Origin: an uncultured Erysipelotrichaceae bacterium
Lineage (GTDB): Bacteria; Bacillota_I; Bacilli_A; RFN20; CAG-826
NCBI GenBank assembly: GCA_902763555.1
Contig: CACWSI010000006.1
Span: 1 to 43,097, forward strand
Length of the DNA: 43,097 nucleotides
Reading direction: 5' to 3'
Shown here: positions 34,165 to 40,910 of the stretch, in pieces
How the letters are laid out: each line of letters begins with the position of its first letter
Position numbering within the stretch: the stretch's first letter is position 1
Program-made: the position numbers and the translations under genes
Notes under the pieces: model-generated
What the model saw: only the letters and a program-made list of their open reading frames with translations
Database searches by the model: none
Told to the model about the DNA's origin: nothing

Positions 34165-34890
34165 ATGAATAAGGACATCAATCTAATCTACGGAAAGAAT
34201 CCAGTATACGAAGCTCTCAATGCTAAAAAGGCGTTGAAAGTTTTTGTTGTTCCTAGTTTTTCTGACCCAAGAATCACTAATCTCGTAAGAGAATATAAGA
34301 TTCCTGTGATCACTATTTCCCCTAATGAAATGGATAAGATGTCTAATAACGGTGTCCATCAAGGAGTCGCTGCTGAACTTAAACCATATCAGACGGTTTC
34401 TTTAGACGAAATCATTCTTAGAGCAAAAAAGAAAGAAAAGAAGATTATCGTCATGCTTGATAATATTGAGGATCCACATAATTTAGGCGCTATTTTAAGA
34501 AGTGCGGATGTCTTTGAAGCATCTGGAGTTATCTTACCTAAGCATAATTCCGTTTCTTTAAACGCTACTGTGGCAAAGACAAGTGCAGGCGCTATTAACT
34601 ATGTGCCAGTCGCAGTTGTAAATAACCTCAATCAAGCAATTAAACAGTTAAAAGAAGAAGGCTACTGGGTTGTTTCTACAGATGGTAGTGCAACGATTTC
34701 CTATTCTTCTATTAAATATGATTTTCCAGTTGTCGTGGTCATAGGCAGTGAAGGTAAGGGTGTTTCATCTCTTGTTCTAAAGAATTCTGATTATGTTGTG
34801 AAGATTCCTCAATTCGGACATGTCAATTCTTTAAATGCTTCCGTCGCAGCCGGCATATTATTAGCGGAGGTGCATAAAACAAATATCTAA
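34165..34890 (+). CDS. rlmB: 23S rRNA 2'-O-ribose methyltransferase (TrmH/RlmB family), 241 aa
   Basis: SpoU-family SAM methyltransferase. The N-terminal substrate-binding part starts INLIYGKNPVYEAL. The knot domain has DNIEDPHNLGAILRSADV, VVVIGSEGKGVS and QFGHVNSLNASVAAGILLAE, the three conserved motifs. RlmB modifies 23S rRNA G2251; the Bacillus orthologue is YacO. The gene is 2 nt after the MgtC gene with no clear Shine-Dalgarno sequence. The cysS-rlmB-sigH order supports the assignment. TrmH substrate specificity cannot be proved from sequence. Confidence 0.9.
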   Translation: MNKDINLIYGKNPVYEALNAKKALKVFVVPSFSDPRITNLVREYKIPVITISPNEMDKMSNNGVHQGVAAELKPYQTVSLDEIILRAKKKEKKIIVMLDNIEDPHNLGAILRSADVFEASGVILPKHNSVSLNATVAKTSAGAINYVPVAVVNNLNQAIKQLKEEGYWVVSTDGSATISYSSIKYDFPVVVVIGSEGKGVSSLVLKNSDYVVKIPQFGHVNSLNASVAAGILLAEVHKTNI

Positions 34891-34907: not shown

Positions 34908-35531
34908 ATGGCACCCAAAACCTATAACCGCATTCTGGATGAGCACCTACATATCCTAATTACACAAGGCAATCATGAAGCCTATCTGTATTTAGTAAAA
35001 CGCTATCGCAAATATTTCAAAGGCTTGACTTGCGAAATGTTAGAGAAATACCCAAATAGTGGTGTTTCTTTTAAAGAACTCATGGCAATTTGCTCACAAT
35101 TATTTCCCAACATCATAAGGAAATATGATCCCCAGCGATTGTCTTCTTTCTTTATCTTTTGGAGAGAAAGTAGTGAGAAAGCAATCGTGGATTATTTATT
35201 AGAGAATTCTTATCTAGCGAATGCGGCAATGTTTCGTGGATTTGTTTCTTTTGATGAAGAAGCTGATGAAAGAAGATTCGCAGGTGAAAGAATCGCAGAG
35301 TTTAATGAACATCACTATAATGAAAAACGCATTGAAGAATTAAAAAGAATAATCTACGAGCATAGAAAAGAATTTAAGCATCAAGAATTTGCGATGTTAG
35401 CACTGATGTTAGAAGGCTATGATCTTAATGATTTAGAACATACAGGAATGATGAGTAGATCCTCATTATATTTAACCTTCAATAACGCTTGTGACAAAAT
35501 CAGAAAATACATCCAAGCAGCGAGAAAATAG
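34908..35531 (+). CDS. Diverged SigH-like RNA polymerase sigma factor, 207 aa
   Basis: Two parts resemble sigma regions. Residues about 18-105 look like region 2: YLYLVKRYRKYF and then SFKELMAICSQL, FPNIIRKYDPQRLSSFFIFW and EKAIVDYLLEN, in the place of the SSFRAFAELCI-like box of SigH. Residues about 160-205 look like a weak region 4: MLALMLEGYDLNDLE, then SRSSLYLTFNNACDKIRKYI, in place of the helix-turn-helix. The gene directly follows rlmB, as sigH does (with yacP between) in Bacillus. AAAGGAG precedes the ATG. I cannot exclude another DNA-binding family; the sigma call rests on these weak matches plus position. Confidence 0.55.
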   Translation: MAPKTYNRILDEHLHILITQGNHEAYLYLVKRYRKYFKGLTCEMLEKYPNSGVSFKELMAICSQLFPNIIRKYDPQRLSSFFIFWRESSEKAIVDYLLENSYLANAAMFRGFVSFDEEADERRFAGERIAEFNEHHYNEKRIEELKRIIYEHRKEFKHQEFAMLALMLEGYDLNDLEHTGMMSRSSLYLTFNNACDKIRKYIQAARK

Positions 35532-35593
35532 CGGTTATATACCTTTCATCACAAAGTGAAAATGGCAATATCGTTATTCATTTTTGCTCTCGC

Positions 35594-35603
35594 GTGATAT
35601 AAT
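35594..35603 (+). promoter_or_regulatory. Extended -10 promoter giving a probably leaderless ecfA1 mRNA
   Basis: GTGATATAATC (35594-35604) contains TGATATAAT (35595-35603). The -10 ends 7 nt before the ATG at 35611, so transcription should start at or 1 nt before the A of ATG. The -35 is weak (TATTCA near 35575). There is no Shine-Dalgarno sequence. An inverted repeat TTTCA/TGAAA lies upstream at about 35544-35562. Confidence 0.65.
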
Positions 35604-35610
35604 CACAACC

Positions 35611-36429
35611 ATGAGCAAACTAGAAATCAAAAATTTGAGCTTCTCATATGACGGCAGTAACAAAGTTATTGACGATATATCTTTCAGTGTTGAAAAGGGC
35701 ACATTTGTCTCTGTCTTAGGTCATAACGGTTCTGGTAAATCCACATTGGCGAAGTTAATCGTGGGCCTACTTGATAAAGCCGGGGGGCAAATCTTTTTTA
35801 ATGACGTCGAAATCACCGAAAAGAATCTTAAAGACTTACAAACCAAGACTTCTTTAATCTTCCAAAATCCTGATAACCAATTTATTGGCTCAACAGTGGA
35901 AGATGATATTGCTTTTGGTTTAGAAAATAGATGTTTTCCACACGATCAAATGCAAGCGGAAGTCGAACGCTTCGCTGATAGTGTGAATATGTTGGATCAC
36001 TTAAAGAAAGAACCAATTAATCTTTCAGGTGGCCAAAAACAAAGAATCGCTTTAGCGGGCGCTTTAATTTTAAGACCAGAAATCTTAATCCTTGATGAAG
36101 CCACATCAATGCTTGACCCTAAAGGCAAATCCACAGTGAGAAAGGTCATTGACCGTATCCATAAGGAAAACAAAGAACTCACAATTATTTCCATTACTCA
36201 CGATATCGATGAAGCTCTTTTAAGCGACAAGGTATTGATTTTGAACAAAGGTAAGCTCGTTAAAGAAGGTAAACCGCAAGACATATTAAGAGATGAATCC
36301 GCTTTATTAGAAGTGAAACTCGATATGCCTTTTGTTTATAAAATCGAAAAAGAGCTAAAAGAAATTGGCATTAATTCCAATGCGGAAACTATTGACCAAT
36401 TAGTGGAGGATATATGGGCATCCAAGTAA
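35611..36429 (+). CDS. ecfA1: ECF transporter ATPase EcfA1 (CbiO-type), 272 aa
   Basis: One of the two ATPases of energy-coupling factor vitamin transporters. Walker A is GHNGSGKSTLAK, the signature is LSGGQKQRIALAGAL, Walker B is ILILDEATSMLD, and the H-loop is ITHD. The start is the ATG at 35611; an in-frame TTG at 35584 precedes the -10 element and so cannot be used. It overlaps ecfA2 by 16 nt. No S component is in this window, so the substrates are unknown and probably several S proteins share this module. Confidence 0.95.
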   Translation: MSKLEIKNLSFSYDGSNKVIDDISFSVEKGTFVSVLGHNGSGKSTLAKLIVGLLDKAGGQIFFNDVEITEKNLKDLQTKTSLIFQNPDNQFIGSTVEDDIAFGLENRCFPHDQMQAEVERFADSVNMLDHLKKEPINLSGGQKQRIALAGALILRPEILILDEATSMLDPKGKSTVRKVIDRIHKENKELTIISITHDIDEALLSDKVLILNKGKLVKEGKPQDILRDESALLEVKLDMPFVYKIEKELKEIGINSNAETIDQLVEDIWASK

Positions 36430-38894: not shown

Positions 38895-40910
38895 ATGAAA
38901 AAACAATTGTTTGCAATCTTAGGAATCATGTTTGCTATTGGCGTTTCTGCTTGTAATAATAGTGAACCAGTTGCTTCTAATAGTGATTTCAAACAACAGT
39001 CTACTAGTAGTTCTACAGAAAGTAGTGAATCAACTTCTTCATCTATTTCATCACAATCTACTAGTGAATCTTCAATAAGCCCATCGGTTAGTTCTAGCTC
39101 TTCAAGCAGCTCATCCAGCAGTGCTTCAAGTAGCTCCTTACCAAGTAGTTCTTCTTCAAGCTCAAGCAGCAGTTCTTCAGTGCATGTCCATAATTATGGA
39201 ACATTAAACGAAGGAACTCTTCCATCATATTATTATGATGGCATGAAGCCTCATTATTACTGCATTGAATGTGGACAGTATTTTGACGTTGATAAGAACC
39301 CTACAACCAAAGACGCTTTAAAACTTGAAAAAGCAGGAGATAGAATCGCTCTTTTAATCAACGGTATTGAAAAGGATATTTTTGAAAATCCTGATAAAAA
39401 CGAACAACGAGTTATTTGGAGATTAGATAATCGTGGTCCAGGAAATACTGCTGTTGTCGCTTTAGCTAAGCCAGGTGATACAACTTATAAATATGGCTTC
39501 TTCGCTGGAGAAAACATTGATGAAAATAATACAATCACAATTGATGGCAGAGTTGATTTTGTTTTAGTGGCAACTCCTAATGGTCTTGTATTAAACGCTC
39601 TTGAACATAATGGCTTAGTGGTCAAAGTTAATTCCGAAGAATATCCACTAAACCCTGTTACCTATCTTGATGGTGTAACTAAGACATATATTTATGGTTA
39701 TCATTACTTTGAAGTCGGTGACAAAATGACTGTTGTTGATAAGGACAACAATATCACTTATGGATATAGCGATATCGCGAGTGATTCCGCTTGGAATAAA
39801 TATGATTTCCATAAAGGTACCAACAACGAGTTTGTCTTCGACAAAGCTGCTAGATTTGGTATTGAATTTGGCCGTGATGGAGTAAATGATATTTCTGTTA
39901 CTAAAACATTTGGTCCTTCTACAGGTACTGAATTCGCTGTTACTTTCAATTCAGAAAGAACTAGCGAACAATTAATAAAACATTCATATGCCACTAACAC
40001 TGAGGCCTATACAGAAGCAACTTGGTATGTGTTGCATGAAGTGGTTATAAACGCTGATGATATTAAAGCCGCTTTAGTGAATGGCTATGATATGTATACA
40101 GCTACTGTTTCTTTCTCAAGCGGTGAAGAATTCAACCTTAAAGACATTACTAATAACGCAGCTATTACTGGTGATCATTTAGCCTCTTACTATGGCGAAG
40201 ATGATTGCTTCACAATCTCAGGCGATTACATCAAAATCTTAAAAAACGGCAGCTACGGTATTTATTATGTTCCATCCGCTAATGTTATTGCTTTGACCAC
40301 TATGTCAGCGCCAGGCAATGCAAACATTATGGTCGATGGTGCATTTGTTCCGTTAACCAAAGACGCTAATGATAATGTCACCTATACTGGCCATTTTGAT
40401 AAGAATACATACGTTGTATTTGCAGATGATAGCTATAACATGATTACACCAACGTTAGCGAGTGGCGTTGATCAAACTGCTGTTCATTTGTCTTCATTCT
40501 TAATCTATTTTGACAAAGCCGGTACATTCAAACTTGATTTGAATTTAAACACTAATGTGTTAAATGTTACTGTCATAGAACTAGATGATCCTAGTCAACA
40601 ACAAGGACCTATTACTGGTGCTTATTTAATTGGCTCTGGTGGTATGTCCGCTAGAATGGAAAACAATCCAGATAATCCTGACGAATTAATGAAGAAAAAT
40701 GTCCAAATGGTAGCCAGTAGTGGAATGGTTTATGTTTCCATTTATAATTCCACACTAAGCGGCAATATTGAAGGTGTTACTTTATCAGAAGATAGCGCTA
40801 GTGTCGCAACAGCAATGAGTACCTTGTTCTATATCACCGCTGGTGAAGGAACATACGATTTCTATCTCAATAAAAACACTTTGGTATTGAGAATAGTTAA
40901 GGTTTCATAA
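38895..40910 (+). CDS. Surface lipoprotein with poly-Ser linker, 671 aa
   Basis: A lipoprotein signal peptide (lipobox VSAC, Cys20) is followed by a Ser/Thr-rich linker (about residues 30-95). A short module HVHNYG...HYYCIECGQYF (about 97-135) carries one CxxC and several His, a pattern I have seen in Firmicute surface proteins, probably metal binding. The rest looks beta-rich. Three similar strand motifs recur near residues 442 (KNGSYGIYY), 536 (KAGTFKLDL) and 645 (GEGTYDFYL), resembling starch-binding or SusE/F-type repeats. Function is unknown; a glycan-binding role is inference. AGGAGG precedes the ATG, 14 nt after truA, so it is probably in that operon. Its signal resembles that of the 709-aa lipoprotein. 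Confidence 0.75.
   Translation: MKKQLFAILGIMFAIGVSACNNSEPVASNSDFKQQSTSSSTESSESTSSSISSQSTSESSISPSVSSSSSSSSSSSASSSSLPSSSSSSSSSSSSVHVHNYGTLNEGTLPSYYYDGMKPHYYCIECGQYFDVDKNPTTKDALKLEKAGDRIALLINGIEKDIFENPDKNEQRVIWRLDNRGPGNTAVVALAKPGDTTYKYGFFAGENIDENNTITIDGRVDFVLVATPNGLVLNALEHNGLVVKVNSEEYPLNPVTYLDGVTKTYIYGYHYFEVGDKMTVVDKDNNITYGYSDIASDSAWNKYDFHKGTNNEFVFDKAARFGIEFGRDGVNDISVTKTFGPSTGTEFAVTFNSERTSEQLIKHSYATNTEAYTEATWYVLHEVVINADDIKAALVNGYDMYTATVSFSSGEEFNLKDITNNAAITGDHLASYYGEDDCFTISGDYIKILKNGSYGIYYVPSANVIALTTMSAPGNANIMVDGAFVPLTKDANDNVTYTGHFDKNTYVVFADDSYNMITPTLASGVDQTAVHLSSFLIYFDKAGTFKLDLNLNTNVLNVTVIELDDPSQQQGPITGAYLIGSGGMSARMENNPDNPDELMKKNVQMVASSGMVYVSIYNSTLSGNIEGVTLSEDSASVATAMSTLFYITAGEGTYDFYLNKNTLVLRIVKVS

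Follow-up and report, generated by a model that had tools for sequence, protein, structure and literature searches.

A putative SigH-like sigma factor and a predicted competence promoter that changes among genera of uncultured Bacilli

The window analyzed here is a 43,097-nt stretch from the genome of an uncultured Erysipelotrichaceae bacterium, an incomplete assembly of 1.15 Mb in 82 contigs. Directly downstream of rlmB it contains an open reading frame (here referred to as SIG) that starts with ATG after a 17-nt gap holding a AAAGGAGA Shine-Dalgarno sequence (Table 1). A search with this single sequence recovered SIG from 16/16 genomes of the window's genus, at 36 to 98% identity over its length in the other 15, and gave matches in 53 of 279 genomes of the order; a 22-row SIG profile matched 212 of the 279, a figure that also takes in other sigma factors and cannot be read as an orthologue count. 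The named relatives are MAGs (uncultured Bacillales, Bacilli, and Erysipelotrichaceae/Erysipelotrichia), some of them titled as from ruminant stomachs. Because SIG is conserved over its length within the genus, it is a real gene and not a chance open reading frame. Across genera, SIG sequences are 21 to 25% identical (22-sequence alignment), compared with mostly 45 to 65% for rlmB and ecfA1/ecfA2, and the residues typical of classical region 2 are largely replaced. Such fast divergence would suit a functionless, decaying remnant of sigH, but we regard this reading as extremely improbable: SIG is stop-free in all listed matches of the 53 genomes, its length and place are constant, and D11, Y33, and W85 are invariant, with F81 nearly so.

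Table 1. Features at the SIG locus (positions in the window)
Feature	Position	Strand	Evidence
rlmB (SpoU-type rRNA methylase), constant upstream neighbour	34165..34890	+	Pfam SpoU_methylase 2.7e-44
SIG, putative SigH-like sigma factor, 207 aa	34908..35531	+	16/16 genus genomes; profile best match 3mzy
Approximate sigma region 2 (residues 17-116), including invariant F81..W85 block and NSY motif	34956..35255	+	Alignments; limits by eye
Approximate sigma region 4 helix-turn-helix (residues 156-204)	35373..35519	+	Sigma-H/LuxR-type HTH profile match; confident model part
TATAAT ahead of ecfA1, sigma-A-like -10	35598..35603	+	Read from sequence
ecfA1, downstream neighbour in the genus	35611..36429	+	Pfam ABC_tran 1.2e-34; listed ORF starts 35584

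The surroundings of SIG are similarly stable. rlmB lies directly upstream in 50/50 loci read (30 from the single-sequence search and 20 outgroup loci). Among the 30 loci from the single-sequence search, in one of which (L033) the SIG frame was assigned by position, ecfA1 follows SIG in 29 and the contig ends in 1. Of the 20 further loci, which come from other genera and families, 9 have ecfA1 downstream and 6 have nusG (NusG identity confirmed in 6/6), the remaining 5 being unassigned in this count. cysS lies near SIG, with Na/H-antiporter-like and mgtC-like genes between cysS and rlmB. Judged by gene order, the SIG locus is a Bacillus-type sigH cassette, rlmB-sigH-(rpmG-secE)-nusG, in which the window's genus has ecfA1 instead of nusG. 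An adjacent anti-sigma gene is common, though not universal, in ECF groups; none adjoins SIG, whose neighbours are rlmB and ecfA1, and SIG thus lacks this mark of ECF (group 4) sigma factors. Two further observations concern the surrounding annotation. The mechanical start of ecfA1, a TTG at 35584, precedes the TATAAT; translation more probably begins with the ATG at 35611. A 671-aa serine-rich, lipoprotein-like protein that has no Pfam match is encoded at window positions 38895 to 40910, with truA on one side and a yebC-like gene on the other; it is absent from the corresponding place in locus L074.

We compared SIG with known protein families both as a single sequence and as a family. Alone, the SIG protein matched no Pfam sigma model at E<=10; its NCBIfam matches to SigI (0.0013), FliA (0.004), and SigH (0.012) all lay short of the curated cut-offs, and weak matches to DUF2515 (0.023) and DnaT (0.064) were dropped as identities. 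Membership in the sporulation SigH equivalog TIGR02859 was rejected, as SIG scored 15.1 bits against a curated cut-off of 294.8. Among 22 members of the SIG family, however, 12 matched the sigma-70 model TIGR02937 (best 1.2e-13), 11 the spore_sigH model (best 1.6e-8), and 8 Pfam region 2 (best 3.5e-5), each at E<=0.1. When the family profile was compared with solved structures, the best match was the sigma-H factor 3mzy (E 1.6e-6, columns 55-203); the helix-turn-helix parts of LuxR-type regulators also matched, as expected for region 4. An AlphaFold model of SIG had a mean pLDDT of 64, with a confident C-terminal part (pLDDT 82-89). A Foldseek search with this model returned nothing at E<=0.001, its best rows being sigma factors; the highest Z from VIA-align was 7.8, below that tool's caution level of 8, and neither result was used as proof. 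The family, rather than the window sequence alone, thus supports the assignment of SIG to the sigma-70 superfamily, in which it likely belongs with the SigH/ComX group, outside the sporulation equivalog. Most of what the preliminary description of this DNA had said about the gene itself held up. The frame at 34908-35531 that it had picked out is conserved in 16/16 genus genomes, the sigH position that it had proposed agrees with rlmB upstream in 50/50 loci and nusG downstream in 6 distant ones, and its reading of SIG as a sigma factor gains support from the sigma-70-like family profile and from the profile search that it had suggested, with sigma-H 3mzy as best solved match at 1.6e-6. The traces of region 2 that it had noticed in SSFFIFW include F81 and W85, conserved across 22 sequences, and its C-terminal helix-turn-helix is backed by the family profile and by the model. 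Its placement of SIG after cysS and rlmB was exact for rlmB, but cysS is only nearby, with two genes between; the structural check that it had proposed gave sigma factors as the best Foldseek rows, with all matches below the level of proof.

We then asked what such a sigma factor might read. The comEA upstream regions at 11/11 aligned loci of the genus share the block GGAMAAA and, at an unvarying distance of 15 nt, CTAYT. This element, GGAMAAA-N15-CTAYT, was found in 16/16 genus genomes, with 154 matches in total compared with 55 for the reversed pattern. In the window's genome, where it takes the form GGACAAA/CTATT, 11 of its 12 matches are intergenic and 1 lies inside a gene. The element precedes a small-protein gene with comFA-comFC, rpsF-ssb, recA, dprA (split in the assembly) with topA, comEA-comEC-holA, a gene for a 60-aa peptide with radC, a pilus-type operon (VirB11/TadA-type), two ABC transporters, and small basic proteins at three loci, of which one is disturbed. 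Target identities rest on Pfam (the helicase, ssb, recA, dprA, comEA, radC, and others) and, for comEC, on PF03772, a search for which left comEC missing in 4/16 genus genomes, several of these incomplete. Mostly the same targets were found in three other genus genomes (G189, G182, and G181; in G182, 15 of 17 matches were read, the other 2 both being of the GGAAAAA type), along with a C39-peptidase gene (by Pfam) ahead of three genes that we take to be ybeY-cdd-era. Some sites, in the window's genome as in other genus genomes and in g30 (see below), precede genes without a known competence role. Among the targets of SIG suggested in the preliminary description, competence-like genes fit this predicted regulon, in which the element stands ahead of comEA-comEC, comFA-comFC, dprA, and recA, while for stress and surface genes the predicted regulon offers nothing more than a single pilus-type operon and a single ABC pair. 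The element's unlikeness both to the TATAAT ahead of ecfA1 and to the published SigH consensus is in line with the altered promoter choice that the description had inferred.

Several of the predicted targets are of interest in themselves. The proteins of about 100-145 aa encoded behind the element are small and very basic, fall into several families, and in many cases contain a GHP or HPN motif (L136:896-1273, L140, L144, L178, L183, L187, L192, L198, L205, L208, L210, L212, and L213); those tested matched nothing in Pfam, NCBIfam, or PHROGs. The 60-aa membrane-peptide gene (L143:651-833) is conserved ahead of radC and has the element in common with the C39 gene, which encodes a 404-aa protein (L180:648-1862). 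The two may work together in competence, one as a peptide and the other as the enzyme that processes it. In the window's genome, dprA consists of two overlapping open reading frames (L139:653-1323, contig C9), compared with a single 263-aa frame in G189; the split is either an assembly error or a decayed gene.

No sign of autoregulation was seen: the window contains 13 matches to the element at <=2 mismatches, compared with 20.3 expected, none of them ahead of SIG, and the element occurs in 0 of the 16 SIG loci of the genus. Since SIG lacks an element of its own, its activation must come from elsewhere.

A different element was found in part of genus g30, where SIG is about 20-24% identical to that of the window. 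The g30 element, GCAAA-N16-17-CTCTTTAT, ends in CTCTT and had 33 matches in four genomes compared with 0 for the reversed pattern; over all 17 g30 genomes searched it had 38 matches compared with 10 reversed, and it was absent from 10/17. In the two genomes that were read, it precedes comEA-comEC, comFA-comFC, the 60-aa peptide gene with radC, the C39 gene, and a dprA fragment. Other g30 sites (L271-L273, L275, L276, L280, L284, and L285) lack a recognised competence gene or run off the fetched stretch, and two matches (L278 and L279) look like chance. To compare elements more broadly, we aligned the 72-nt regions upstream of comEA and dprA from 21 genomes of 11 genera. The mean local score was 24.7 when both regions came from the same genome and 10.7 when dprA came from another genus, a likeness reached by 0/20000 permutations, and in 15/21 genomes the genome's own dprA region outscored every dprA region of another genus. 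Two regions that are probably mis-started, that of comEA in G162 and that of dprA in G086, were kept in this count. As a control, the regions upstream of ecfA1 (18 genomes, most with a TATAAT-like site) showed no own-genome excess (7.28 compared with 7.80), and those of other genera mostly carry TATAAT too. The comEA and dprA elements therefore change in concert within genomes, which points to one shared reader that is itself changing. The genera would thus have different competence promoter codes for target genes that remain largely alike.

From the homology and position of SIG, the shared elements with their recurring targets, and the concerted change of elements within genomes, we infer that SIG reads the elements and that these act as promoters. 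We consider it highly probable that SIG is a competence sigma factor at the sigH position and that the element is its predicted cognate, jointly drifting promoter. SIG corresponds to sigH by position and probably by descent; with its regions 2 and 4 it would direct RNA polymerase to a late competence regulon comprising the DNA-uptake channel, helicase, DprA, RecA, SSB, RadC, and the VirB11/TadA-type pilus, and the cells would presumably take up DNA. The promoter in the window's genus probably consists of a -35-like GGACAAA and a -10-like CTATT or CTACT, separated by 15 nt that include an A-tract, and SIG and its promoters would drift together to give different codes per genus for much the same genes. 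Alternatively, SIG could be a sigma factor for something else, with the element read by an ECF sigma or by an activator acting with sigma-A. The window's genome does encode four ECF-type sigmas, the link between SIG and the element is indirect, and the SIG gene itself has no element. In four genus genomes (G176, G177, G179, and G184), however, RpoD is the sole PF04542 match and there is one SIG-profile match each, and the element is still present ahead of comEA (G176 and G184) and, exactly or nearly so, ahead of dprA (G177, G179, and G184). Since only RpoD and SIG are detectable there, SIG is the likely reader; two blocks at fixed spacing that drift alongside a fast-evolving sigma also fit a sigma factor better. 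We therefore judge a different reader unlikely.

Most element sites can form a hairpin that has the -10-like block in its 5' arm; the 3' arm usually contains the Shine-Dalgarno sequence and often has T-runs behind it. We examined 51 sites from four genomes, having dropped two single in-gene matches (L147 and L184) as chance. TTTT occurs within 38 nt at 37/51 sites, and cognate arms folded better than arms swapped between sites in 4/4 genomes (258, 1173, 87, and 173 of 20000 permutations were as low). A hairpin z of <=-2 was obtained ahead of comEA in 20/21 genomes and, more weakly, ahead of dprA in 13/21, compared with 3/17 for the ecfA1 control. These folds raise the possibility that the element is mainly an RNA device of the com genes, a terminator or a ribosome-site-hiding hairpin, and that GGACAAA is not a -35. 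Yet the conserved GGAMAAA block and the constant 15-nt spacing lie outside the hairpin, and both recA sites that were read have the element but hardly any hairpin or none. At rpsF-ssb in the window's genome, about 200 nt separate the hairpin from the next start codon, which means that hiding a ribosome site cannot be its sole role; we find a mainly RNA-based function quite improbable. Promoter and hairpin may instead be combined. We suggest, tentatively and with some doubt, that within this order one competence sigma and all its promoters co-change into private genus codes for a nearly fixed set of DNA-uptake genes, with the promoters nested in the stem of a terminator-like hairpin that keeps com genes tightly shut outside competence. 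The hairpin would block read-through from the upstream gene, such transcripts being stopped or left untranslated, while sigma-dependent transcripts born at the promoter would lack the 5' arm, escape, and be translated.

We searched the open-licence PMC literature and found no report of a competence sigma factor of this bacterial group; what is new is the regulon predicted here, together with the way in which element and sigma drift in concert in these uncultured bacteria. Among the closest known counterparts is SigH of Staphylococcus aureus, Lactobacillus sakei, and Listeria monocytogenes, which like SIG adjoins rlmB, with nusG as in the outgroup families. In non-sporulating Firmicutes, according to the available part of PMC3364868, sigH lies in an rlmB/nusG cassette and diverges fast at a constant place, with the low between-species identity also seen for SIG. 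The sigma factor at this position activates late com genes in S. aureus and L. sakei, as far as the accessible text of PMC3486894 and PMC3364868 goes, and the same is predicted for SIG. Unlike SigH, SIG is followed by ecfA1 in most of family f1. The SigH consensus given in excerpts of PMC4754846 is AGG(A/G)WWW with GAA(A/T). The elements described here end in CTATT/CTACT or, in g30, CTCTT, without the GAAT -10 of the SigH class (AGGAWWW/GAAT), and the predicted code of SIG varies among genera. ComX (SigX) of streptococci resembles SIG as a diverged sigma of the same group, and drives late com genes, as predicted for SIG. Its targets include recA, ssb, dprA, radC, comEA-EC, and comFA-FC, which are also among the predicted SIG targets, and its -10 box, TACGAATA, is unlike CTATT. 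In the available part of PMC3364868, ComX is classed in the same sigma group as SigH, and comX, unlike SIG, lies elsewhere in the genome than the rlmB-sigH place. According to the excerpted text of PMC9262362, sigma-20 (MG428) of Mycoplasma genitalium, likewise an alternative sigma of a reduced genome, has recombination genes under its control, among them recA, a predicted SIG target; unlike SIG, it is described there in antigenic variation and recombination. An inverted repeat that hides the ribosome site of sigH itself in S. aureus (PMC3486894, text available in part) differs from the hairpin described here, which sits at element sites. The predicted regulon offers a testable, site-by-site account of competence for a sizeable group of uncultured Bacilli whose genomes measure about 1-2 Mb, its small basic proteins and 60-aa peptide being new candidate competence proteins, and the sigma/promoter pairs would form a natural series for asking how promoter choice can shift while the regulon stays.

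The pilus-type operon would set this regulon apart from SigH systems, since the uptake pilus appears to be of the VirB11/TadA type. An ATPase over the PF00437 cut-off was found in 13/16 genus genomes, and those read are VirB11/TadA-like; the ATPase of the pilus operon matched VirB11 (2.6e-31), TadA (8.9e-29), and ComGA (1.2e-17), none over its own NCBIfam cut-off. An assignment of the PF00437 matches to ComGA was rejected, as the sequences and NCBIfam show a VirB11/TadA-like ATPase. No comG operon was seen where the VirB11/TadA-type operon sits in the regulon, and the two membrane proteins of the operon, compared with a view to TadB/TadC platform proteins, matched no relevant Pfam or NCBIfam model. 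If uptake runs on such a pilus, it would depart from known competent Firmicutes, which use a comG pilus. The operon's first gene (L336:8529-8852; homologue L145:649-972) has an NCBIfam match to MG284/MPN403 (5.4e-17) and also weakly matches ArpU-type phage regulators; the MG284/MPN403 match is a possible link to mycoplasma biology.
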